Shown: in pieces, positions 10,571-54,996 of the stretch
Layout: each line of letters starts with the position of its first letter
Position numbering within the stretch: position 1 is the stretch's first letter
Assembly (NCBI RefSeq): GCF_029210365.1
Contig: NZ_JARGES010000027.1
Location: 62,001-126,000 of the forward strand
Direction of reading: 5' to 3'
DNA: 64,000 nucleotides
Origin: Mesorhizobium sp. YIM 152430
GTDB lineage: Bacteria; Pseudomonadota; Alphaproteobacteria; Rhizobiales; Rhizobiaceae
Made by a program: the position numbers and the translations under genes
The notes under the pieces: model-generated
Told to the model about the DNA's origin: nothing
Databases searched by the model: none
The model's input: only the letters and a program-made list of their open reading frames with translations

Positions 10571-11517
10571 TGGCTCTGATCTCCTACTACGACATCGGTG
10601 TCGCATCGGTCGCAAACGGCGAGACGTTCGTCACCGGAACCGGCACGCAATGGCTGACGGCGCTACGCGAGAACGACATCTTCGTCGGCAAGGATGGCCG
10701 GTCTGCGCGCGTCGCCTCGATCGAGAGCGCCACGTCGCTGACACTGGCCCGGCCGTGGCCCGGCGACAGCCAGACCGACGATGTCTATGAAGTCCGCATC
10801 ACGCCGGCGCCGTCCGAGATCACAGCGTCGGTTCGTGAGCTGCTGGAGAAGCTGCGGCAGGGCTTGTGGCTCACCCCAAACGCCACCGGGACGCTTGCCG
10901 AGCGCGCCGGCTATGACAGCGCTCGTCGCGGCTTCATCTACATGCAGACCGACGTCGAGCCCTTCGTCGTCTTCGTCAAGCAGACGGATACGGCGGGCGA
11001 CTGGTCGCCTGGAACGTCACCACAGGCCGGGCCGCAGGGCGAGCAGGGCGATCAAGGCATTCAAGGTGAACTCGGCCCCCGTGGCTGGACGATGGAACTG
11101 GAGGCGGTCACCGATGGCCCCGACCGCGACGTTCTCCGCGTTGTCGGATGGGTCGGCGGCGAGGGCGACCCACCCACAGAAGGCATCGGTTCATATATCG
11201 GTCCGGGTGGACTTGTCGCAACGGCAGCCCAAGCACTGAACATCAAGGGCAATATCGGCGATCGCGGCCCGACCGGCATCAACTGGCGCGGCGCCTGGGA
11301 AAGCGATGAAACCTATCAAGACCGCGACATCGTGACCGATCCCGACATCAACGACGGCCCGGCTGCCTGGATTGCGACCGCGTCAAACCTCAACAGTCGC
11401 CCGCGCGACAATCCCGCCGACTGGCAGTTCTTCCCCGGCGCATTCCCCGCGACCGCCGATTACGGCGTGATCGCCGAAAGCCCTGACACAACCCGCGACT
11501 ATGGAGTGCTCGCATGA
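10570..11517 (+). CDS. Tail fibre with short collagen-like repeat
   Basis: A 315-residue protein. Residues 1-75 form a beta-rich attachment module (G-V-A-S-V-A-N-G-E-T-F-V-T-G-T-G-T). Near 152-175 there is a run of G-x-x triplets (G-P-Q-G-E-Q-G-D-Q-G-I-Q-G), and a second short G-x-x stretch lies near 227-236. Such repeats form trimeric collagen-like shafts in phage fibres. The C-terminus contains W-R-G-A-W and D-I-V-T-D-P-D motifs like those of fibre carbohydrate modules. It overlaps genes on both sides by a few bases. Confidence 0.75.
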   Translation: MALISYYDIGVASVANGETFVTGTGTQWLTALRENDIFVGKDGRSARVASIESATSLTLARPWPGDSQTDDVYEVRITPAPSEITASVRELLEKLRQGLWLTPNATGTLAERAGYDSARRGFIYMQTDVEPFVVFVKQTDTAGDWSPGTSPQAGPQGEQGDQGIQGELGPRGWTMELEAVTDGPDRDVLRVVGWVGGEGDPPTEGIGSYIGPGGLVATAAQALNIKGNIGDRGPTGINWRGAWESDETYQDRDIVTDPDINDGPAAWIATASNLNSRPRDNPADWQFFPGAFPATADYGVIAESPDTTRDYGVLA

Positions 11518-12140
11518 GCCAGCAAATTCGCCGCCGGCGCGGCACGACTGCGCAACACGCCGGCTTTACAGGGGCTGGAGCCGAACTGACGGTAGATACC
11601 GACAAGAACACGGTCGTCGTTCACGATGGCGCCACGGCTGGTGGTCATCCGCTGGCGAAAGAGGCGGCACTGGCCGATAAGGCTGACGCAACTGCCACTG
11701 CTGATGCGTTGGCGACTCTCGATCAGAACGTCAACGTTCGCCTGCGTTTCGACACGGCTCAGTCGCTGACCAACTCCCAGAAGCAGCAGGCAATGGCAAA
11801 CGCCGGAGTTCCCCTGTCCGAGTTTTACGAAAGCGGGGAACTGACGATCACGTCCGGGTCGTTCATCACCCTGACGCACGGGCTTTCCGGGATTCCGCGA
11901 CTGGCGACTGGCGTGTTGCGGTGCAAGACCGCAGAGCATGATTACTCGGTCGGCGACGAAATACTGGCGATGACGATCGAAAGCGCCGACTACGGCTCAA
12001 TAATTGTGCTGCGACCGACACAGGTGGTTGTTCTCTACGGGACAAACCCAAGCGTCTTCACGGCAAAACACTCAAGCACACGTGCTGGCGTTCTCCTGAC
12101 GAATGCCAACTGGCGATTGATTGTGAGGGCATGGAGATGA
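11514..12140 (+). CDS. Tail fibre/receptor-binding module
   Basis: A 208-residue protein starting in an ATGA overlap. The first 50 residues (R-R-R-G-T-T-A-Q-H-A-G-F-T-G-A-G-A-E-L-T-V-D) match the N-terminal fold found on many fibre and major tropism determinant proteins, with the usual V-V-V-H-D-G-A-T-A-G-G-H-P-L. A helical linker follows (about 52-95), and then a beta-rich end. It probably carries host-binding specificity. It lies right beside the putative glycan-modification cassette, so fibre and lysogen surface could be linked functionally. Confidence 0.7.
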   Translation: MSQQIRRRRGTTAQHAGFTGAGAELTVDTDKNTVVVHDGATAGGHPLAKEAALADKADATATADALATLDQNVNVRLRFDTAQSLTNSQKQQAMANAGVPLSEFYESGELTITSGSFITLTHGLSGIPRLATGVLRCKTAEHDYSVGDEILAMTIESADYGSIIVLRPTQVVVLYGTNPSVFTAKHSSTRAGVLLTNANWRLIVRAWR

Positions 12141-12523
12141 GCGAGGTTCGATATTTCGTCGACAAGGCGGGGCGGTATCTTGGCGCGACCGATGGCGAGC
12201 CGCTTTCGGCTTATGAGGTCGAGGAAGGCCCGCATCACGTCTCACAAGTGTGGAATGGTTCGGCGTGGTCTGCCCCGTCGACCATTGAGCAGGTCACCGT
12301 CGTTTTCCCCGCCGATTTGTGGCGGCGCGCGACGGACGAAGAGGCCGAGGCGATCGATCAGGCCATGGGGGCGCAGCCGCTGCGCATCCGCCGCATCTTC
12401 CAGAATGCGCAGTCCTATCAGTCCGATGACGAGCTTTGGCCCTTGCTCATGGGGGCGGCGATTCAGTTGTTTGGCGAAGCCAGGGCGGCAGTGCTCTTAG
12501 AGTCCTCGTTGCCGGGGGCGTAA
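12131..12523 (+). CDS. Fibre-associated hypothetical protein
   Basis: A 130-residue protein that overlaps the fibre gene by 10 bases. The start may be ATG 12131 or ATG 12137; GGAG 2 bases before the latter is too close, so 12131 is kept. The N-terminus reads like a fibre tip strand (R-Y-F-V-D-K-A-G-R-Y-L-G-A), and the C-terminal half is helical, as in tail fibre assembly proteins. No exact family recognised. It ends 5 bases before the convergent membrane-protein gene. Confidence 0.55.
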   Translation: MEMSEVRYFVDKAGRYLGATDGEPLSAYEVEEGPHHVSQVWNGSAWSAPSTIEQVTVVFPADLWRRATDEEAEAIDQAMGAQPLRIRRIFQNAQSYQSDDELWPLLMGAAIQLFGEARAAVLLESSLPGA

Positions 12524-12528
12524 CCGAG

Positions 12529-13965
12529 TCATTCCTGGGCGCCTTTTGCGAGAGTTTCCAGTCGGCTAGCAGCTAATCGGCCAGCGAACTCGATCAACTC
12601 GATCAACACGATCAAGCTGGCGAGTACGGTCGCGGCAATCATCCAGTGTGAGTACCGGAAGTCGGCCGATCCCGTCGCAAAAAACAAACCCACCATATGA
12701 AGGCAGCCGCTTCCAAAGAGTGCCGTCGCTACGGCAAAAGTCAGTCTATTTGTTGCAGCAAAGAACGCAACGGAAACAATCAGGCCGACGACACTGGCCA
12801 TCAAATAATAGTATGGCTTGAAGATATCGGCGGCGGCGAGCTCATTAAGGGTTTCGAAATAGAAGGTTTCGTGGTCGCTGGGTCTGCTTTGAACCCCGAG
12901 GTCGTTCTCATCAATACGGCTGAACACCGGACCCCAAAGCATTTCAAACGGGGGCAACCCGACGAGGCTCGCGAACACAGCTGATCTGTGTGCAAGATAT
13001 TCCCAAGGAAACTCGGCAACTAGCTGCATCCAGGTCTCCGCGAGAGCGGTTCGCGCACTCGGGTTTTCCTGAAAATGATCATACTGAAAGGGCGTTGCGC
13101 TTTTGGACGGCCTTCCTCCTTCATCCTCATGAACCTGCCTGCCGACCATGAGCGGCACAAGCGAGCGCGGTGTGTACAACGTTCGGACGTCTTCGAGTGT
13201 TTGCGGGGCTAGAACCGAAATATCAACATCACCGGTGCTGGCTGCGGCAATTCCGGCGATGTCGTACTGAGCGATGACAGTCCACAGATGGGCTCTTTTC
13301 TCGACGATTTGCGAACTGACGATGCTGGCAAGCGCCAGCAAGCAGACTGCAACGGCCGCCCCGCCGAAAACAGAGACAAAGAAGCGCGCGACGAATCGCA
13401 AACGGCCCTCCAGGGCCATGAAAACGACAGCTGCTGCGATCGGCACTACCGCGGCGCCGGCGTTGTGCCGCATGGAAATGGCAAGGAAGAGAAAGAGGAA
13501 GGAGATTGCCAGAAGCAGCGTTCGACGCTGCGCGTGTTGGTAGGATGCCGTGGCAGTTCCGAGCGCCATCAACAGGAAACCAGCCATGAAGATATCCGAC
13601 CAGATTACCCCGATGATCCCTAACAGCGGTGGCCAAAAACTGAAGATCAGAAAGCCTAGCGCCAACGCCGCGCCGCGAAACAGGGACGCGAGCGTCAGTG
13701 CAGCCCCAAGGGAATATAGAAGCAACTGTAGCAACAGCATCAGCTGAGGCCCCGGCGAGACTTTGTCCAAGGGTGCCCAGAGGAGCGCCAAGTACGGCGA
13801 CCAGGCGTCACTGAGATCGCCGGTACGCGCCTGGCGCAATATCTCTATGCTGTCGGTTGACATCGAACCTGGATACCAGATGAAGAGCATCAAAACCGAC
13901 CAGACCAGAGACAAGCCGGCAGCGGCCGTGAATGACGTTCCCTCTGAAAATCCTTGCGCTGTCAT
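12529..13965 (-). CDS. Polytopic membrane protein, probable GT-C-type glycosyltransferase
   Basis: A 478-residue protein with about ten hydrophobic segments. GGAAGGAGC lies 6 bases before the ATG. The first loop carries W-Y-P-G-S-M-S-T-D-S-I-E, where an acidic residue follows the first membrane segment, as in GT-C lipid-linked sugar transferases. A large non-membrane part lies near residues 230-340. It is divergent from the GT2-DUF2304-flippase genes and resembles the serotype-specific Gtr transferase of gtr clusters by role and topology, not by clear homology. Base composition is visibly lower in G+C than in the tail genes. Confidence 0.6.
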   Translation of the reverse strand: MTAQGFSEGTSFTAAAGLSLVWSVLMLFIWYPGSMSTDSIEILRQARTGDLSDAWSPYLALLWAPLDKVSPGPQLMLLLQLLLYSLGAALTLASLFRGAALALGFLIFSFWPPLLGIIGVIWSDIFMAGFLLMALGTATASYQHAQRRTLLLAISFLFLFLAISMRHNAGAAVVPIAAAVVFMALEGRLRFVARFFVSVFGGAAVAVCLLALASIVSSQIVEKRAHLWTVIAQYDIAGIAAASTGDVDISVLAPQTLEDVRTLYTPRSLVPLMVGRQVHEDEGGRPSKSATPFQYDHFQENPSARTALAETWMQLVAEFPWEYLAHRSAVFASLVGLPPFEMLWGPVFSRIDENDLGVQSRPSDHETFYFETLNELAAADIFKPYYYLMASVVGLIVSVAFFAATNRLTFAVATALFGSGCLHMVGLFFATGSADFRYSHWMIAATVLASLIVLIELIEFAGRLAASRLETLAKGAQE

Positions 13966-14039
13966 GTATAGCTCCTTCCGTCGGGCTACCGACGCACTTG
14001 CACGAAGCGGGAGGTCATGTCACGTACCGATGTGACAAC

Positions 14040-14045
14040 AAGGGG
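14040..14045 (+). promoter_or_regulatory. Ribosome binding site that favours a TTG start
   Basis: AAGGGG lies 9 bases before TTG 14055, the first start codon ahead of the conserved V-W-I-V-I-P-A-F-N-E segment. The only upstream ATG in this frame (13932) lies inside the divergent gene. Confidence 0.55.
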
Positions 14046-14054
14046 ACTGTCCTT

Positions 14055-14732
14055 TTGAAAAATGTTTGGATCGTCATCCCGGCTTTCAACGAAGGCGAAG
14101 TTCTCGGCGATGTCGTTCGCTCGGCCGTCGCTCGCGGGTTCTCGGTCGTGGTCGTAGATGACGGGTCGAAGGATCTGTCAGGGGAGATTGCCTATCGGGC
14201 AGGAGCGCATGTTTGCCGTCATCCGATCAATCTCGGCCAGGGAGCCGCACTCCAAACCGGCATCGACTTTGCGCTCGGCCACGACGCGGATGCCGTTGTC
14301 ACCTTTGACGCAGACGGTCAGCATTCGCTCGACGACGCGTCAGCAATGGTTTCCCGCCTAGCACGAGGCGACGTCGATGTCGTGCTCGGGTCGCGCTTTC
14401 GAGGCGAGGTCGTAGGCATGGCATCGTCGAGAAGGTGGCTTCTGCGGGCAGCGACGATATATACCCGAATGACTTCGGGACTGCGCGTCACGGACACCCA
14501 CAATGGACTGCGCTGCCTAAGCCAGCGAGCTGCGCTGCAAATTCGAATTCGGCAGAACAGAATGGCTCATGCTTCGGAGATCCTGAACAAGATCGGGTCG
14601 CTGGGTTTGCGCTATGTGGAGGTTCCTTGCACCATCGCCTACACTGACTATTCCCGCGCGAAGGGGCAGAGAATGTCGGGCGCCCTGACCATTTTGGTCG
14701 ATCTCGCAATGGGAAGGCTCTATCGATCATGA
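14055..14732 (+). CDS. Family 2 glycosyltransferase (dolichol-phosphate mannosyltransferase-like)
   Basis: About 225 residues from TTG 14055. It shows the GT2 signature: I-P-A-F-N-E-G near the start, V-V-V-D-D-G-S-K-D, then V-T-F-D-A-D-G-Q-H with the metal/nucleotide-binding D-A-D, and G-S-R-F-R-G. It lacks the C-terminal membrane pair of GtrB, so it is closer to soluble DPM1-like enzymes. These charge polyprenyl phosphate with a sugar. The DUF2304 gene starts in an overlap with its stop, and such proteins often partner small GT2 enzymes. Substrate unknown. Confidence 0.85.
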   Translation: MKNVWIVIPAFNEGEVLGDVVRSAVARGFSVVVVDDGSKDLSGEIAYRAGAHVCRHPINLGQGAALQTGIDFALGHDADAVVTFDADGQHSLDDASAMVSRLARGDVDVVLGSRFRGEVVGMASSRRWLLRAATIYTRMTSGLRVTDTHNGLRCLSQRAALQIRIRQNRMAHASEILNKIGSLGLRYVEVPCTIAYTDYSRAKGQRMSGALTILVDLAMGRLYRS

Positions 14733-15049
14733 TCAAGTTCATACTTGGAGCGCTTCTTCTCCTCCTCCTGATGTATGCGATAGCCCAGTTCCGCCGATCC
14801 CGTCCGATCTCGATCGCTATCATTCTGTGCTGCGTTGTCGGATTCGTGTTCGTGATCTCTCCCGACCTCAGCACGTCAGTGGCCAACTACCTGGGCGTGG
14901 GGCGCGGCGCCGATCTCGTCATTTATCTGGTCGCGATTGTCACGCTCGCCGGAATTTTCAACCTCCATCTACGAATTCGTGCGTCCGACCATTTGGTCAC
15001 TGAGCTTGCACGAGCGTTCGCAATCTCGACCGCACGCGTGCCCAAATGA
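14729..15049 (+). CDS. DUF2304-type small membrane protein
   Basis: A 106-residue protein with three hydrophobic segments (about 3-17, 28-45, 64-82) and a short positively charged C-terminal tail. This pattern, together with its place right after a DPM1-like GT2 gene, fits the DUF2304 family, which accompanies polyprenyl-phosphate sugar transferases. It overlaps both neighbours by 4 bases, so coupled translation is likely. A role as membrane anchor for the soluble GT2 is an inference. Confidence 0.7.
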   Translation: MIKFILGALLLLLLMYAIAQFRRSRPISIAIILCCVVGFVFVISPDLSTSVANYLGVGRGADLVIYLVAIVTLAGIFNLHLRIRASDHLVTELARAFAISTARVPK

Positions 15050-15399
15050 CAATCTGGCTTTACGCGGCTTGTTTGTCGTTTGCAGTCATCATGGGCGTCG
15101 GGCAAATGATGTTCAAGTTCGCTGCTCAGGACATCCGCATACGCGCCGAGATTTCGCCGGTCTTCGCTGCGTTTTCGCCTTGGTTGATCGCCGCCATCGT
15201 TCTCTATGCAGCAAGCACGGTTCTTTGGGTCGGAATACTCATGTACGTTCCGCTCAGTAAAGCTTATCCGTTCGCTCTTCTCGGCGCCGCATTGGTTCCA
15301 ATCTTGGCTGTTCTCGCTTTGGGCGAGACGCTATCCATCTACTATCCCCTGGGATTGGGCCTGGTCGTCATCGGCGTTATGATTACCCAGTTGGGCTAA
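15046..15399 (+). CDS. EamA/SMR-type transporter, probable lipid-linked sugar flippase
   Basis: A 117-residue protein with four membrane segments. It has the second-half pattern of ArnE/ArnF and EmrE-like proteins: V-P-L-S-K-A-Y-P-F-A-L-L-G-A-A, then L-G-E-T-L-S. In the Arn and Gtr systems such proteins move undecaprenyl-phosphate sugars across the inner membrane. It is the last gene of a tightly overlapping trio and thus supplies the flipping step expected after the GT2. A short G-C-rich hairpin follows before the convergent methyltransferase. Confidence 0.8.
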   Translation: MTIWLYAACLSFAVIMGVGQMMFKFAAQDIRIRAEISPVFAAFSPWLIAAIVLYAASTVLWVGILMYVPLSKAYPFALLGAALVPILAVLALGETLSIYYPLGLGLVVIGVMITQLG

Positions 15400-15427
15400 G
15401 CGCACTCACCATGGTGCGTGTCGAATG

Positions 15428-16282
15428 TCATTTGCGCGTGACAACAGCCGCCAACATACCTGTGGGCAAGGGCGCGGAGAGAGTCGGCGGCAACATGCGA
15501 GCCACCGCACGCAGCCTGAGAACTTCAAGCAAATATCTGACGCTATAGCCCACATTCAGTCGTTGGACCCGAACGTCGACGTCGATGCCTTTCATCTGAG
15601 CTTGACGCTGGAGACACAAGTCCGCGCCTGTGCGCGTGGGCACGGTTATGTGTTCGCCAGGCTCGAAGTAGGGCCAGGATCGGCCCAAAACCTTTCGCGC
15701 GAACGATCCATAGTCAGGACAGATGAGGATAAGTCGCCCCTTGTTCGCCACCAGCGACAGGCACTCATGCGCAAAGCTCGATGGCGTGAGAACATGCTCC
15801 CAGACGGCTACGGAAAACACGGTGTCGAACTCTCGACCAATGCTCTCACTCCATCCATTCCGGTTCATGTCGACACTTGAGTATTCTACCGTCCGGTCCA
15901 ACCCCCCTGGCCGAGGCCCGATATCTGCGGCTGAGCCGTTTGGCCGTGTGCGTGCGAGCTTGTTGGCTACTTCAGCATGGCCAGCGCCAACGTCCAGCCA
16001 GCTTCGGCCCACAAGATGTCTTTCTATAAAATCGGTGTAAAACACATACTGGGCATCAAGCGCGCCCGAGCGAGCGCCCTCCTTGTACCACAGAGGCCGG
16101 AATTGCTCGTAGTGCTGATAGAACTCGGATAGCCGCAGTTCGCTCGGTGGGTTCGCGGTCCCCAACGAACCACAATGATTGCATCGGAACAGATCAAAGG
16201 GGCCAAAGGTCGTGTCGACCTTGTGGCTCATCCCCCGATAGACAAGGCGTGTGTTGTCCGACCCGCAGTAATCGCAATGCAT
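15428..16282 (-). CDS. Zinc-ribbon class I SAM-dependent methyltransferase
   Basis: A 284-residue protein. An N-terminal C-D-Y-C...C-N-H-C zinc ribbon (residues 3-38) precedes a methyltransferase domain with S-W-L-D-V-G-A-G-H (motif I) near 95-103 and F-S-V-A-V-W-E-H-V as the post-motif. Zinc-ribbon methyltransferases of this type often act on nucleotide- or lipid-linked sugars or on glycan ends. It converges on the flippase gene and lies between the sugar genes and the amidase, so it probably belongs to the same cassette. Substrate unknown. Confidence 0.8.
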   Translation of the reverse strand: MHCDYCGSDNTRLVYRGMSHKVDTTFGPFDLFRCNHCGSLGTANPPSELRLSEFYQHYEQFRPLWYKEGARSGALDAQYVFYTDFIERHLVGRSWLDVGAGHAEVANKLARTRPNGSAADIGPRPGGLDRTVEYSSVDMNRNGWSESIGREFDTVFSVAVWEHVLTPSSFAHECLSLVANKGRLILICPDYGSFARKVLGRSWPYFEPGEHITVPTRTGADLCLQRQAQMKGIDVDVRVQRLNVGYSVRYLLEVLRLRAVARMLPPTLSAPLPTGMLAAVVTRK

Positions 16283-16408
16283 GAGAACGCCCTTCTGAAT
16301 GGCCCAGACTGATCGCAGCTATCCAGCCGACCCGACCGGCCCCTGAACACCCCATAGATTGCCCTTCGAACAACTTCAATCACCCGGAAACGGGGGAAAG
16401 GCATAGCC

Positions 16409-17251
16409 GTGACCATCATCCCGACCGAGTGGATGCCGCTCGTGCCCATGGCCCGCATCATCGGCCACTGGACCGCCGGCAATCACAAAGCCAGCGACAC
16501 CGACAGGCGCGCTTATCACGTCCTCGTCGAGGGCGACGGCAAGGTGATCCGCGGCGTTCCGTCGATCGACCTCAACTCGGGCTCGATCAAGAGCGGCTAC
16601 GCGGCGCACACGCTCAACTGCAACACCAATTCCATCGGTGTCTCGATGTGCGGCATGGCAGGGGCCGTCGAGGTGCCTTTCAGTGCCGGGCGCGCGCCGC
16701 TGACGCAGGTGCAGTGGAATGCCTTCGTGCAGGCCGTCGCTGCCCTCGCGCGGCGCTACGGCATTCCGGTTACGCCGAAGATGATCCTTTTCCATGCCGA
16801 GGTGCAGGGCACGCTGGGGATCACGCAACGCAACAAGTGGGACGTGATCCGGCTGCCGTTCGATCCATCCGGCACCGGCGCCAAGGCCGTCGGCGACAAG
16901 CTCCGCAGAGAGGTGACCAAAGCCATGTCTGGAGTGAACATCGCGCCGCCCGATCCGGTGCCTGCCGGGGGCGTGGGTCGCGTCATTCCGCCCGCGCTCA
17001 ACACCCGCAACGGGCCGAACGGCGAGGTGACCGGGGCGCTGCGAGAGGGAACACGCGTCGAGATCATCGGCCAGAACGGCAACTGGCTGAATATCGAGAC
17101 GCCGGCCGGGTTCAGCGTGTGGGCGCATCGGGACTTCATCGAGGTGGTCGACGGCCCGCCTGCGCTCGAGCCGACGAAGCCAGATCCTCGACGCGCCATC
17201 ATCGATCGCATCCGCCGCGATCTCGACGAACTTGAAACCATGGGAGCATGA
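16409..17251 (+). CDS. Endolysin: N-acetylmuramoyl-L-alanine amidase with SH3b domain
   Basis: A 280-residue protein with a GTG start after a GGGGGAAAGG site. The amidase domain (about 1-175) shows I-I-G-H-W-T-A-G (zinc His20), Y-H-V-L-V (second His near 37) and I-L-F-H-A-E-V (third His near 131). Residues about 190-250 form a bacterial SH3 domain (L-N-T-R-N-G-P-N-G-E-V and W-A-H-R-D-F) likely to bind peptidoglycan. No signal peptide is seen, so export depends on the adjacent holin. It overlaps the holin gene by 4 bases. Confidence 0.88.
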   Translation: MTIIPTEWMPLVPMARIIGHWTAGNHKASDTDRRAYHVLVEGDGKVIRGVPSIDLNSGSIKSGYAAHTLNCNTNSIGVSMCGMAGAVEVPFSAGRAPLTQVQWNAFVQAVAALARRYGIPVTPKMILFHAEVQGTLGITQRNKWDVIRLPFDPSGTGAKAVGDKLRREVTKAMSGVNIAPPDPVPAGGVGRVIPPALNTRNGPNGEVTGALREGTRVEIIGQNGNWLNIETPAGFSVWAHRDFIEVVDGPPALEPTKPDPRRAIIDRIRRDLDELETMGA

Positions 17252-18998: not shown

Positions 18999-19062
18999 CG
19001 AAGCCTCGGTCCATCAAACCTGCGGAACACTTCGTAAATCGTGCTGAAAGCCTTGGAAAACA

Positions 19063-19138
<76 letters not shown>

Positions 19139-51830: not shown

Positions 51831-52385
51831 TTAGTTGAAGACGATCCGGGCTGCCGCATGAAGTCCGTTTTCGTTCACATTGACGACGATCGCCTCGCCC
51901 TCGCGCGAGCGCGCGCCGAGCACGGACTGGATGAAATCGCCGTGCGTCACCAGCACCAGAATGCCCGAGCCGGTATAGTCCGCGACGGTTTCGCGCAGCA
52001 GTTCGGAGCGTTCGTCGGCTTCCTCGCCGTCCGGCTCGAACGGATCGAGCCAATCGACGGTCTCGACCAGCGATGCGCCAAAGGCGAGTTCGGCCGTTTC
52101 CTTCGTCCGGCAATAGCGGCTTGCCAGAACCTCCTGCACCGGCGCCGCGCGCGCCGCGAAAAGGGCACCGATTCGCCTGGCCTGCTGGCGGCCCTGTTCG
52201 GAAAGGTTGCGTTGCGTGCGGCAGACCTCGATGTCGAACGAGGCCGGTTCGCCCGAGCCCGGTGCATTGGCGTGGTTCAAGAGCACGACCTGGCCGCCGT
52301 TCCGCAGGAGCGCCCAGCCTGCCTCGGTCGCATGTGCCGGCAGGGCCATTGCCAGCGCCGCGATGATGATGAGCGCCCTGATCAT
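51831..52385 (-). CDS. Secreted histidine-phosphatase-like protein
   Basis: A 184-residue protein from ATG 52385, which has GGGAG 5 bases upstream; ATG 52406 is less likely. Residues 1-20 form a signal peptide (M-I-R-A-L-I-I-I-A-A-L-A-M-A-L-P-A-H-A). The fold has S-R-Y-C-R-T-K-E-T-A and V-T-H-G-D-F of the phosphoglycerate mutase-like family. At the usual L-R-H motif it reads L-L-N-H-A-N-A-P-G, with Asn in place of the catalytic Arg. It may have altered activity. Location is probably periplasmic. Confidence 0.7.
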   Translation of the reverse strand: MIRALIIIAALAMALPAHATEAGWALLRNGGQVVLLNHANAPGSGEPASFDIEVCRTQRNLSEQGRQQARRIGALFAARAAPVQEVLASRYCRTKETAELAFGASLVETVDWLDPFEPDGEEADERSELLRETVADYTGSGILVLVTHGDFIQSVLGARSREGEAIVVNVNENGLHAAARIVFN

Positions 52386-52511
52386 TGCGTCTCCCATTGG
52401 TTTCATGACGACTCATATAGGCTGAACGGCCTGAAGCGAAACCGTGCGCCCGCCGCCTTTTGACGCGGCTGGACCATTGCGGCCCGGTTCCGGCCGGGCT
52501 ACTGCCCGATC

Positions 52512-53462
52512 ATGTCGCCTTTGACCGAGACAATCTTCTTCGTCTTCGGACTTGTCGCGCTCGGCTACGTCTCGGGCTGGACGGGCCTGTTGAAAACCGC
52601 GATCGGCGATGCGCTGACCGCCTTCGCCGTCGCGATCGCGGTCCCGATGCTGCTCTTTCGAACGCTCATCGAGGCTGATTTTCAAGGTTCCGCGCCATTA
52701 TCGCTGTGGGCCTGCTATTTCTTCGCGGTCGCCGCCGCTTGGGCCTGCGGCCAGTTCGTCACGCAGAAGGTTTTCGGGCGCGATGCCCGCGCCGGTGTCG
52801 TCGGCGGCGTATCGGCGGCATTCTCGAACCTCGTCCTTCTCGGCCTTCCTCTGGTGCAGGGCGTATTCGGCAGGCCGGGCCTGGAAGTCCTGTCGCTCAT
52901 CGTCGCTGTCCACCTGCCGATCATGATGGCGATGTCGATCGCGCTCTTCGAATGGGCCAATCGCAATTCGGCCGAAAGCGCCGGCATCCTCGCCGCGCTG
53001 ACGGATTTCCTGAGGAAGCTCGTGTCCAACCCGCTCATTGTCGGAATTCTGGCCGCGCTGATCTGGCGGCTGACCGGGTTCGAGATGCCCTCGCTGGGAA
53101 TGCGCTTCGTCGATGCGCTCGCCAATGCGGCCGGCCCGCTGGCGCTGTTTGCCATGGGCCTGTCGCTGCGACGCATGGGCATTTCCGGCAATGTGAAGGC
53201 CGGCCTCGCCCTTTCGGCGGTCAAGCTTTTCGTGATGCCTGTTGTGGCGCTGGGCGCCGTGCTCGTCATCGGCCTGCCGCCGCTCGCCGCCATGGTCGTC
53301 GTCACCGCCGCCGCGCTGCCCGCCGGCGTCAATCCCTACCTGATCGCGACGCGGTTCGGCACCGGGCAGGCGCTCGCATCCAACGTCATGACGATCTCGA
53401 CGCTCGTCGCCGCCGGATCGAGCTTCCTCTGGCTCGCCGTGGCTCAACGCCTTTTTGGCTGA
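52512..53462 (+). CDS. AEC family transporter
   Basis: A 316-residue protein with about ten hydrophobic segments in two halves. It has F-A-V-A-I-A-V-P-M-L-L-F and a later V-T-A-A-A-L-P-A-G-V-N-P-Y typical of auxin efflux carrier family exporters. The family moves small organic acids or amino acids, often malonate or malate-like, but the substrate cannot be read here. It precedes the GabD-like gene by 76 bases on the same strand, so it could share its transcript. Confidence 0.8.
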   Translation: MSPLTETIFFVFGLVALGYVSGWTGLLKTAIGDALTAFAVAIAVPMLLFRTLIEADFQGSAPLSLWACYFFAVAAAWACGQFVTQKVFGRDARAGVVGGVSAAFSNLVLLGLPLVQGVFGRPGLEVLSLIVAVHLPIMMAMSIALFEWANRNSAESAGILAALTDFLRKLVSNPLIVGILAALIWRLTGFEMPSLGMRFVDALANAAGPLALFAMGLSLRRMGISGNVKAGLALSAVKLFVMPVVALGAVLVIGLPPLAAMVVVTAAALPAGVNPYLIATRFGTGQALASNVMTISTLVAAGSSFLWLAVAQRLFG

Positions 53463-53538
53463 TTGTCTTGGTCCTGCCGGCCGGTTGCCTTACATCTTCC
53501 ATCACGCAATCCATTTTGAACGAATGAGGGAGGGCATC

Positions 53539-54996
53539 ATGCTCAAGAAGACCAGTCATTTTCTCCGCGAGGCCAATCTGATCGGCGGTGAGTGGGTGCA
53601 GGCCGATTCGGGTCAGACCATCGACGTGACCAATCCGGCCAACGGCCAGAAGATCGGCGTCATCCCCAAATCCGGCGCCGCCGAAACCCGACGCGCCATC
53701 GAGGCCGCGCATGAGGCGTTCAAGACCTTCCGCAAGACCAGCGCGCTCGAGCGTTCCAAGATGCTGCGCAAGCTGCACGACGCGATCATGGACAATCAGG
53801 ATGTGCTCGCCGAACTCCTGACCATGGAGCAGGGCAAGTCGCTGACCGAATCGAAGGGCGAGGTCGGCGCATCGGCCGCCTATATCCTCTGGTTTGCCGA
53901 AGAAGCGCGCCGCACCTATGGCGACGTCATCCCGTCGCCCTGGGCCGACCGCCGCATCCTGGTGACGAAGGAGCCGGTCGGCGTCGTCGCGGCGATCACG
54001 CCTTGGAATTTCCCGTCCTCGATGCTGTCGCGCAAGATCGGCCCGGCCATCGCCGCCGGCTGCACCGCCGTCGTCAAGCCGGCGACCCAGACGCCCTATT
54101 CGGGCCTTGCCTGGGGCGCGCTGTGCGAGGAAGTCGGCATCCCGAAGGGCGTCGTCAACGTTGTCACCGGCGGCGCGAGCGAAATCGGCAAGGAACTTTC
54201 CACCAACCCGCTGGTCAAGAAAATCACCTTCACCGGCTCGACGGAGGTCGGCAAGATCCTGATCCAGCAGTCGGCGTCGACGGTCAAGAAGGTGTCGATG
54301 GAACTTGGCGGCAACGCGCCGTTCCTCGTCTTCGACGACGCCGACATCGACCGCGCGGTCGAGGGTGCCGTCGCCGCGAAATACCGCAATTCCGGCCAGA
54401 CCTGCGTCTGCACCAACCGCTTCTTCGTCCAGTCCGGCATCTACGATGCCTTCGTCGACAAGCTCGCCAAGGCTTCGAACAAGCTGAAGGTCGGCCCCGG
54501 CCTCGAGGAGGGCGTCCAGCAGGGCCCGCTGATCGATGAGAAGGCCGTCGAAAAGGTGGAGGAATTCGTCGCCGACGCCAAGGCGAAGGGCGGCAAGGTT
54601 GTCGCCGGCGGCAACCGCCACAAGCTCGGTGGCTCCTTCTTCGAGCCCACCGTCATCGCCGATGCCACGCCCGACATGAAGTTCATGAAGGACGAGATTT
54701 TTGGCCCCGTCGCCCCGGTCTTCCGTTTCGAGAAGGAGGAGGAGGCGGTCGAGATGGCCAACGATACCGAATTCGGCCTCGCCTGCTACTTCTACACCGG
54801 CGACCTCGGCCGCGCCTTCCGGGTCATGGAGGGCCTGAAATACGGCATGGTCGGCGTCAACGAAGGCATCATCACCACCCCCGAAGCCCCCTTCGGCGGC
54901 GTCAAGGAATCCGGCCTCGGCCGCGAAGGCGGACATCAGGGCATCGAGGATTATCTCGACACCAAATATGTCTGCATCGGCGGGCTGGGGCTTTAG
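53539..54996 (+). CDS. gabD: NAD(P)-dependent succinate-semialdehyde dehydrogenase-like
   Basis: A 485-residue aldehyde dehydrogenase. ATG 53539 has GAGGGAGGG before it. N-F-P (in T-P-W-N-F-P-S-S) and F-T-G-S-T-E-V-G are cofactor-binding motifs; the catalytic parts are M-E-L-G-G-N-A-P-F (Glu) and N-S-G-Q-T-C-V-C (Cys). The overall pattern (E-A-P-F-G-G-V-K-E-S-G-L-G-R-E) matches GabD. It would oxidise succinate semialdehyde from GABA or polyamine breakdown. The aminotransferase at 28652 could supply such a substrate, but it lies far away. Substrate inferred. Confidence 0.8.
   Translation: MLKKTSHFLREANLIGGEWVQADSGQTIDVTNPANGQKIGVIPKSGAAETRRAIEAAHEAFKTFRKTSALERSKMLRKLHDAIMDNQDVLAELLTMEQGKSLTESKGEVGASAAYILWFAEEARRTYGDVIPSPWADRRILVTKEPVGVVAAITPWNFPSSMLSRKIGPAIAAGCTAVVKPATQTPYSGLAWGALCEEVGIPKGVVNVVTGGASEIGKELSTNPLVKKITFTGSTEVGKILIQQSASTVKKVSMELGGNAPFLVFDDADIDRAVEGAVAAKYRNSGQTCVCTNRFFVQSGIYDAFVDKLAKASNKLKVGPGLEEGVQQGPLIDEKAVEKVEEFVADAKAKGGKVVAGGNRHKLGGSFFEPTVIADATPDMKFMKDEIFGPVAPVFRFEKEEEAVEMANDTEFGLACYFYTGDLGRAFRVMEGLKYGMVGVNEGIITTPEAPFGGVKESGLGREGGHQGIEDYLDTKYVCIGGLGL

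Follow-up and report, generated by a model that had tools for sequence, protein, structure and literature searches.

A predicted transmembrane glycosylation cassette with a DUF2304-type synthase in a Mesorhizobium prophage

We analysed a 64,000-nucleotide stretch of the genome of Mesorhizobium sp. YIM 152430 (the window; positions are those of the window unless a contig is named) and concentrated on a block of five prophage genes at 12529-16282 that resembles several described glycosylation systems. Phage gtrABC systems charge polyprenyl phosphate with a sugar, flip it and transfer it, and their role in O-antigen conversion is known (PMC3688519). In the GacI/GacJ/GacK/GacL system of Streptococcus and in WpsA/WpsB of Lactococcus, a GT2 glycosyltransferase is activated by a small membrane partner and the product is GlcNAc-P-C55 (PMC10821137, PMC8035078). 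These systems are chromosomal and Gram-positive and use a Wzx-type flippase; no methyltransferase is mentioned for them in the accessible text. The GacJ-type partner is called DUF2304 in a review on phage receptors among Gram-positive cell-wall polysaccharides, where the mention concerns bacterial genes (PMC8327497). In the PpgS (Rv3631)/Rv3632/Rv3779 system of Mycobacterium tuberculosis, PpgS makes polyprenyl-P-GalNAc, and the system has a small membrane partner and a transferase that uses this product (PMC3485146). The three-component pentofuranose system of Citrobacter is chromosomal, takes its donor from phosphoribosyl pyrophosphate and has the ArnE/EmrE-like ORF14 as proposed flippase of the undecaprenyl phosphate-linked sugar, with no DUF2304 mentioned in the accessible text (PMC11127046). 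A DUF2304-type partner and a small ArnE-like flippase with four transmembrane (TM) helices are each known in such systems (PMC8327497, PMC8035078, PMC10821137, PMC11127046), and mixed systems have been anticipated in general: 'Combinations of these two systems might also exist' (PMC8035078).

The block very probably modifies a glycan, and a multi-component transmembrane glycosylation cassette is, with good confidence, the best explanation overall. An initial annotation of the same DNA had proposed a surface-glycan cassette with gtr-like logic but with a tail-less GT2, a DUF2304 protein and a flippase other than GtrA. The families of the genes, their co-occurrence in chromosomes and a gtr-like set in a genome of the same genus (G004) support that proposal.

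Genes of the cassette and comparison with described systems

All five open reading frames (ORFs) are uninterrupted, at the positions first assigned to them. The leftmost gene (12529-13965, minus strand) encodes a polytopic membrane protein of 478 residues with about 10 TM helices by hydropathy, the proposed GT-C glycosyltransferase. A divergent region of 89 bp (13966-14054), presumed to hold both promoters, separates it from three genes on the plus strand. These encode a GT2 of PpgS/GacI type, predicted to be a polyprenyl-phosphate glycosyl synthase (14055-14732), a DUF2304 protein of 106 residues and 3 TM helices that we propose as a GacJ-like partner of the GT2 (14729-15049), and an EamA/SMR protein of 117 residues and 4 TM helices, the proposed ArnE/F-like flippase (15046-15399). 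The GT2 gene probably starts with the TTG at 14055, 8 bases downstream of an AAGGGGA recognised by eye, the mechanical start of the ORF being at 13932. Both junctions of this trio are 4-bp ATGA overlaps, as initially described. The fifth gene (15428-16282, minus strand), convergent with the trio, encodes a zinc-ribbon S-adenosylmethionine-dependent methyltransferase of 284 residues, proposed to act on a sugar. Because the trio lies on one strand and both flanking genes on the other, the block is not one operon. By strand it comprises three transcription units or more, and the genes for the polytopic protein and the methyltransferase point against the direction of the phage late genes. The five genes have a mean G+C of 56.5% and a G+C at third codon positions (GC3) of 0.643-0.673 (mean 0.653), against 63.8% and a mean GC3 of 0.791 (minimum 0.665) in 22 late ORFs that we picked for comparison. 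This bears out the lower G+C first noted and supports a separate origin of the cassette.

The GT2 matches Glycos_transf_2 (8e-25), its best NCBIfam match is PpgS (3e-66) and its catalytic part matches a GtrB-like PHROG (3e-18). Residues D36, D85, D87, Q89, H90, H149-G151 and R169-E175 do not vary when the protein is aligned with 13 relatives that we selected, and the only solved structures related to it at E ≤ 1e-5 are those of ArnC. Family and motifs thus predict an enzyme that charges polyprenyl phosphate. In a tree the GT2 falls among Pseudomonadota without a settled position, the nearest rows being mostly Nitrobacteraceae. It has no TM helix by hydropathy, compared with two in the GT2 of the G004 set, in line with the reported lack of GtrB's membrane tail. 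The DUF2304 protein matches PF10066 (1e-16), and its gene, which overlaps that of the GT2, is indeed an addition to the gtr-like logic. The third protein (family alignment A3) matches EamA and ArnE/F and not GtrA (PF04138), as the initial annotation had it, and is by family resemblance a predicted flippase.

The cassette resembles phage gtrABC in being a prophage moron with charging, flipping and transfer outside, and in having one variable polytopic protein (PMC3688519). It differs in having an ArnE/F-like protein instead of GtrA, a GT2 without TM tail accompanied by DUF2304, an added methyltransferase and at least three transcription units. With GacI/GacJ and WpsA/WpsB it shares a tail-less GT2 followed by a GacJ-type membrane partner, which we propose to feed a GT-C enzyme here as well. 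Unlike these systems, it lies in a prophage and has a 4-TM SMR-type flippase in place of a Wzx-type one. The PpgS system has in common with it the best NCBIfam match and the small membrane partner. However, the GT2 reaches 223 bits where the PpgS equivalog (NF058614) demands 370, and the mycobacterial transferase gene is distant by locus number. The likeness to the Citrobacter system lies in the small 4-TM transporter, a proposed flippase of an undecaprenyl phosphate-linked sugar for a GT-C enzyme (PMC11127046). GT2 and flippase families are likewise those of ArnC/ArnE/ArnF/ArnT, to which we return below. The Arn system has two flippase subunits and another sugar, and is not known to include DUF2304.

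With GacI/GacJ, WpsA/WpsB, PpgS, the ArnE-like flippases and gtr conversion as models, the most likely scheme is that one sugar is charged, methylated, flipped and transferred. The enzymatic steps, the nature of sugar and acceptor and any benefit are inferred. The DUF2304 protein would hold the GT2 at the membrane and stimulate it, and the GT2 would transfer a sugar from a host UDP-sugar to undecaprenyl phosphate. This sugar is perhaps an N-acetylhexosamine, given the likeness of the GT2 to PpgS and GacI. The zinc-ribbon methyltransferase would methylate it in the cytoplasm, on the nucleotide or on the lipid, and the 4-TM ArnE/F-like protein would flip the lipid-linked sugar. The polytopic protein, as a GT-C enzyme, would then attach it to a glycan of the periplasm or the cell surface, most likely the O-antigen or core of the lipopolysaccharide (LPS), and the modified glycan would alter phage receptors. 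Chances are about even that a receptor change or superinfection exclusion is the selected benefit.

Recurrence of the families in chromosomes and phage records

From 581 confirmed relatives of the GT2 in genomes of bacteria and archaea we took the best 80, a sample by similarity, and analysed their loci using hidden Markov model (HMM) profiles partly trained on matches from these same loci. DUF2304 lies within 400 bp of the GT2 in 69 of the 80 loci, and for 42 loci it is the only one of the families sought. An SMR gene occurs within 2.5 kb in 18 loci and a methyltransferase of the family in 23; 19 of the latter are strong matches, and a zinc ribbon can be seen in 17 of the 19. GT-C-family HMM matches were found in 4/80, and 7/80 have none of the four partner families. 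Single window proteins used as queries (E 0.01) gave matches to DUF2304 in 72, to SMR in 17 and to the methyltransferase in 17 of 95 loci. In 32 control loci (25 distinct, 371 kb) no match to these three was found.

All five families occur together in three proteobacterial chromosomal loci, so that the notion, raised initially, that they might never co-occur elsewhere can be dropped. In Ramlibacter (L011) they are found by HMM on one strand, in the order methyltransferase, SMR, GT2, DUF2304, polytopic gene. Pandoraea (L004) has the same order, and the third locus (L012) belongs to an alphaproteobacterial metagenome-assembled genome; in these two the polytopic gene is recognised by hhalign only (90% and 93%, respectively). 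L011 adjoins genes for an epimerase, UDP-GlcNAc 2-epimerase, Polysacc_synt_2 and RmlD, and L004 is near Polysacc_synt and GT2 genes. Among 132 polytopic ORFs compared by hhalign, six exceeded 50%, three of which belong to the query alignment. In each of the six cases (L011, L004, L012, L025, L026 and L031) a GT2 or the DUF2304 gene that accompanies it is no more than about 1.3 kb away. The last three loci lack the methyltransferase and have the other four families; the SMR match of L026 is weak and that of L025 is about 3.4 kb from the GT2. Ten polytopic genes near other chromosomal loci (L004, L012 and L031 included) were tested against Pfam: two match DUF2142 and eight have no match. As a separate observation, three records of the 27-kb plasmid of Lawsonia intracellularis (NC_008012, NC_020128, NZ_CP107057) carry a GT2-DUF2304 pair whose GT2 is about 52% identical to that of the window.

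GT2 matches of some kind are present in at least 91 of 101 genomes (own included). Among the matches listed, the best outside the own genome is 38% identical over 201 residues (E 2e-29), with short partial matches reaching 50%. DUF2304 exceeds the cut-off in 1/101 genomes, the own one, and two others match weakly. At E ≤ 1e-10 the polytopic protein is present in 8 of 385 genomes of the class (own genome included). Since the 100 relatives contain neither a close GT2 nor a DUF2304 above cut-off, the acquisition of the cassette may be recent.

Scans of viral contigs with the GT2 alone, with a GT2 alignment and with the polytopic protein confirmed no phage copy. A tblastn search of 50,697 phage records (E ≤ 0.01) gave no match for the polytopic protein or for DUF2304. 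For the latter this search is insensitive: a DUF2304 gene that HMMs detect in MT835786 escaped it. The DUF2304 protein of MT835786, used as a query, matches only itself among phage records. MT835786 (L099), filed as a bacteriophage and containing the best GT2 match among phage records (52%), was dropped as phage evidence because its GT2 groups with Actinomycetota (100/98) and no phage gene was recognised in it, going by ORF starts inspected by eye without a family search. It is probably bacterial DNA, as judged from these features. DUF2304 was met nowhere as a phage gene in the literature that we covered, which excludes most subscription journals. With the same coverage, work joining prophage GtrA with the Rhizobium O-antigen and acetyltransferases concerned acyltransferases. 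One predicted LPS glycosyltransferase has been reported from a Sinorhizobium prophage, according to the accessible text.

The prophage and the region upstream of its endolysin

The host genome has 3.83 Mb, and the prophage, of about 50 kb, looks complete and is integrated in tRNA-Val. A direct repeat of 58 bp marks the attachment (att) sites. Its right copy (19051-19108) overlaps the 3' part of the tRNA-Val gene (19063-19138, minus strand), and its left copy, at contig position 30960-31017 and so outside the window, adjoins the integrase. Nine prophage proteins were searched against PHROGs, and DnaB helicase, terminase, portal, protease, capsid, tape measure and tail fibre were among those recognised. 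Repeats, integrase and structural genes thus show carriage by a temperate phage. To the left of the cassette are a gene for a tail protein with an Mtd_N domain (11514-12140, plus strand; 2e-14) and a small ORF without a family match above cut-off (12131-12523, plus strand). On its right lies an N-acetylmuramoyl-L-alanine amidase endolysin (16409-17251, plus strand; Amidase_2 5e-15, PHROG endolysin 1.6e-39). The location between tail and lysis genes, as first proposed, is therefore confirmed.

Some further features of this prophage and its relatives were observed. The Mtd_N domain, known from the tropism determinant of a Bordetella phage, is found in the tail protein that adjoins the cassette. 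The C-terminal residues 478-579 of the portal protein (L096:13491-15329, plus strand) match a PHROG called 'RNA ligase' (1e-15), apparently a fused extra domain. Between the replication genes and the terminase, two ORFs predicted on the minus strand (contig 52230-53851, window -9770 to -8149) have a lower GC3 (0.66); they are possibly another moron, or not genes at all. One genome with a related endolysin (G584, L151) has a stretch of 91 bp that is 92% identical to the tRNA-Val att end (19048-19138), perhaps from a phage at the same site.

In G004 (L145), a genome of the same genus, a gtrA gene (PF04138, 2.6e-15), a GT2 gene with two TM helices and a polytopic gene of 466 residues lie directly upstream of an endolysin 72% identical to that of the window, and DNA similarity between the two phages begins inside the endolysin gene (16416). 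Genes of the Acyl_transf_3 family are found upstream of related endolysins in two further genomes (L153 and L156). A genome with related tail genes (G527, L149) has no glycan-modifying gene at that position. In G531 (L168, 3-6731), an endolysin is followed by an acyltransferase-3 gene (minus strand), a short piece of the endolysin's beginning, another acyltransferase-3 gene (minus strand) and a second endolysin copy (matching residues 1-132). The arrangement looks as if a duplication at the start of the endolysin had brought in the acyltransferase genes.

Alternative explanations and meaning of the cassette

Several results weigh against a five-component glycosylation cassette. The polytopic protein has no family match at E ≤ 1 (Pfam, PHROGs, NCBIfam), its fold model, built from four sequences, is poor (predicted local distance difference test score, pLDDT, 52.5), Foldseek with this model returned nothing at E ≤ 0.001, and the family profile matches no PDB sequence at E ≤ 10. 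Nor does hhalign link it to the polytopic gene in the set of G004 (0.2%). All seven distant relatives whose surroundings (10-14 kb) were covered lack a PpgS-type GT2, DUF2304 and SMR there. One of them (L113) adjoins a weak GtrA-like match (1.8e-4). For the flippase candidate, the NCBIfam matches to ArnF (1.1e-8) and ArnE (1.1e-5) are both under cut-off. Between the methyltransferase and its chromosomal counterparts the similarity is remote (26% identity over 62 residues to L011; 28.9 bits against a profile built without it), and 57 of the 80 GT2 loci have no methyltransferase nearby. No sigma-70 consensus was found in 12300-16600. Finally, among the related endolysins, not each established as belonging to a prophage (inspection by eye leaves doubt about L150, L153 and L157), glycan-modifying genes lie upstream in 3 of 34 distinct loci with upstream sequence (L145, L153, L156). 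Of 36 loci scored, two are left out of the 34: L168, whose scored endolysin is that of L146, and L170, with 164 bases upstream. The acyltransferases upstream of the partial second endolysin of G531 are outside this count. The idea of a general hot spot for glycan genes is weakened by this frequency, which indicates a position used more than once, not generally.

We still consider it probable that the polytopic protein acts as a GT-C transferase. The family alignment (A5, 11 sequences) keeps P32, D38, D124 and D235, and D38 sits after the first TM helix. An aspartate there, with further acidic residues, fits a GT-C enzyme without being proof. One of the 11 members matches DUF6020 (1.3e-4) and one PMT_2 (0.013). 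Accordingly, the polytopic nature of the protein first described as GT-C-like is upheld, and its identity as a GT-C enzyme is not established. The methyltransferase is somewhat likely to belong to the pathway. It matches Methyltransf_23 (1.4e-11), and the zinc-ribbon cysteines C3, C6, C34 and C37 and the methyltransferase motifs are invariant across 13 chosen module methyltransferases, drawn from the 19 strong chromosomal relatives. With a model of pLDDT 62.8, the top 14 Foldseek matches are chains of KijD1, MtmC and TcaB9 (E 2e-6 to 4e-5, TM-score about 0.5), proteins about 120 residues longer, and the 83 matches at E ≤ 0.001 include other methyltransferases. Going by their titles, KijD1 and TcaB9 are sugar C-3 methyltransferases, and we take MtmC to be one as well. 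Since these closest folds are nucleotide diphosphate (NDP)-sugar C-methyltransferases, methylation before flipping is likelier; the initial suggestion that the enzyme caps the sugar is not established.

Other explanations can be weighed against this background. The trio may function alone, making and flipping a polyprenyl phosphate-linked sugar for a host-encoded transferase, the polytopic and methyltransferase genes being unrelated flanking morons. It is indeed only the trio that is co-directional with 4-bp overlaps, and both the 42 loci with DUF2304 only and the seven distant polytopic relatives away from such a trio fit this explanation. We find it improbable, given that the shifted composition is common to all five genes, that the six loci named above place the polytopic family close to GT2 or DUF2304, and that strong methyltransferase-family matches occur near the GT2 in 19/80 loci (with a profile partly trained on these). 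Alternatively, the cassette might act as ArnT, FlmK or RgtABCD do and modify lipid A or the inner core, with resistance to cationic peptides or environmental stress as the benefit and not phage exclusion. Lipid A and core modification in rhizobia uses routes of this kind, the flippase is closest to ArnF and ArnE, and ArnC provides the only solved relatives of the GT2. However, two of the three five-gene chromosomal loci adjoin polysaccharide genes, and the same genus has a gtrA/gtrB-like counterpart, of a kind for which O-antigen conversion is known (PMC3688519). We therefore hold this explanation to be unlikely, if somewhat less so than a trio acting alone.

The genes could also be passenger DNA, derived from a host, caught in the prophage and silent or without benefit. 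The missing promoter match and the possibly recent acquisition are compatible with this. We regard it as very unlikely, because none of the five frames is interrupted, the family motifs persist in the GT2 and the methyltransferase, the set is kept despite a gene order that differs from the three five-gene chromosomal loci, and glycan-modifying genes occupy this phage position in three other genomes. An anti-phage defence system was considered separately and rejected, none of the five proteins having a PADLOC match at E ≤ 0.1.

For the glycosylation cassette, we tentatively suggest, at somewhat less than even chances, that it is a second, independently built serotype-conversion machine. It would combine a GacI/GacJ-type synthase, an ArnE/F-like flippase, a GT-C enzyme and a methyltransferase to decorate the lysogen with a methylated sugar, while related phages carry classical gtr or acyltransferase genes instead beside the lysis module. 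If this is true, phage serotype conversion is not bound to the GtrA/GtrB pair, and the DUF2304-type synthase of Gram-positive cell-wall polysaccharides and mycobacteria is also found in a phage of Gram-negative bacteria, where searches based on gtr genes would miss it. The locus would then also offer a compact five-gene set for studying the pairing of DUF2304, SMR-type flippases and GT-C proteins, and might be a means by which phages vary the surface of rhizobia-like bacteria.

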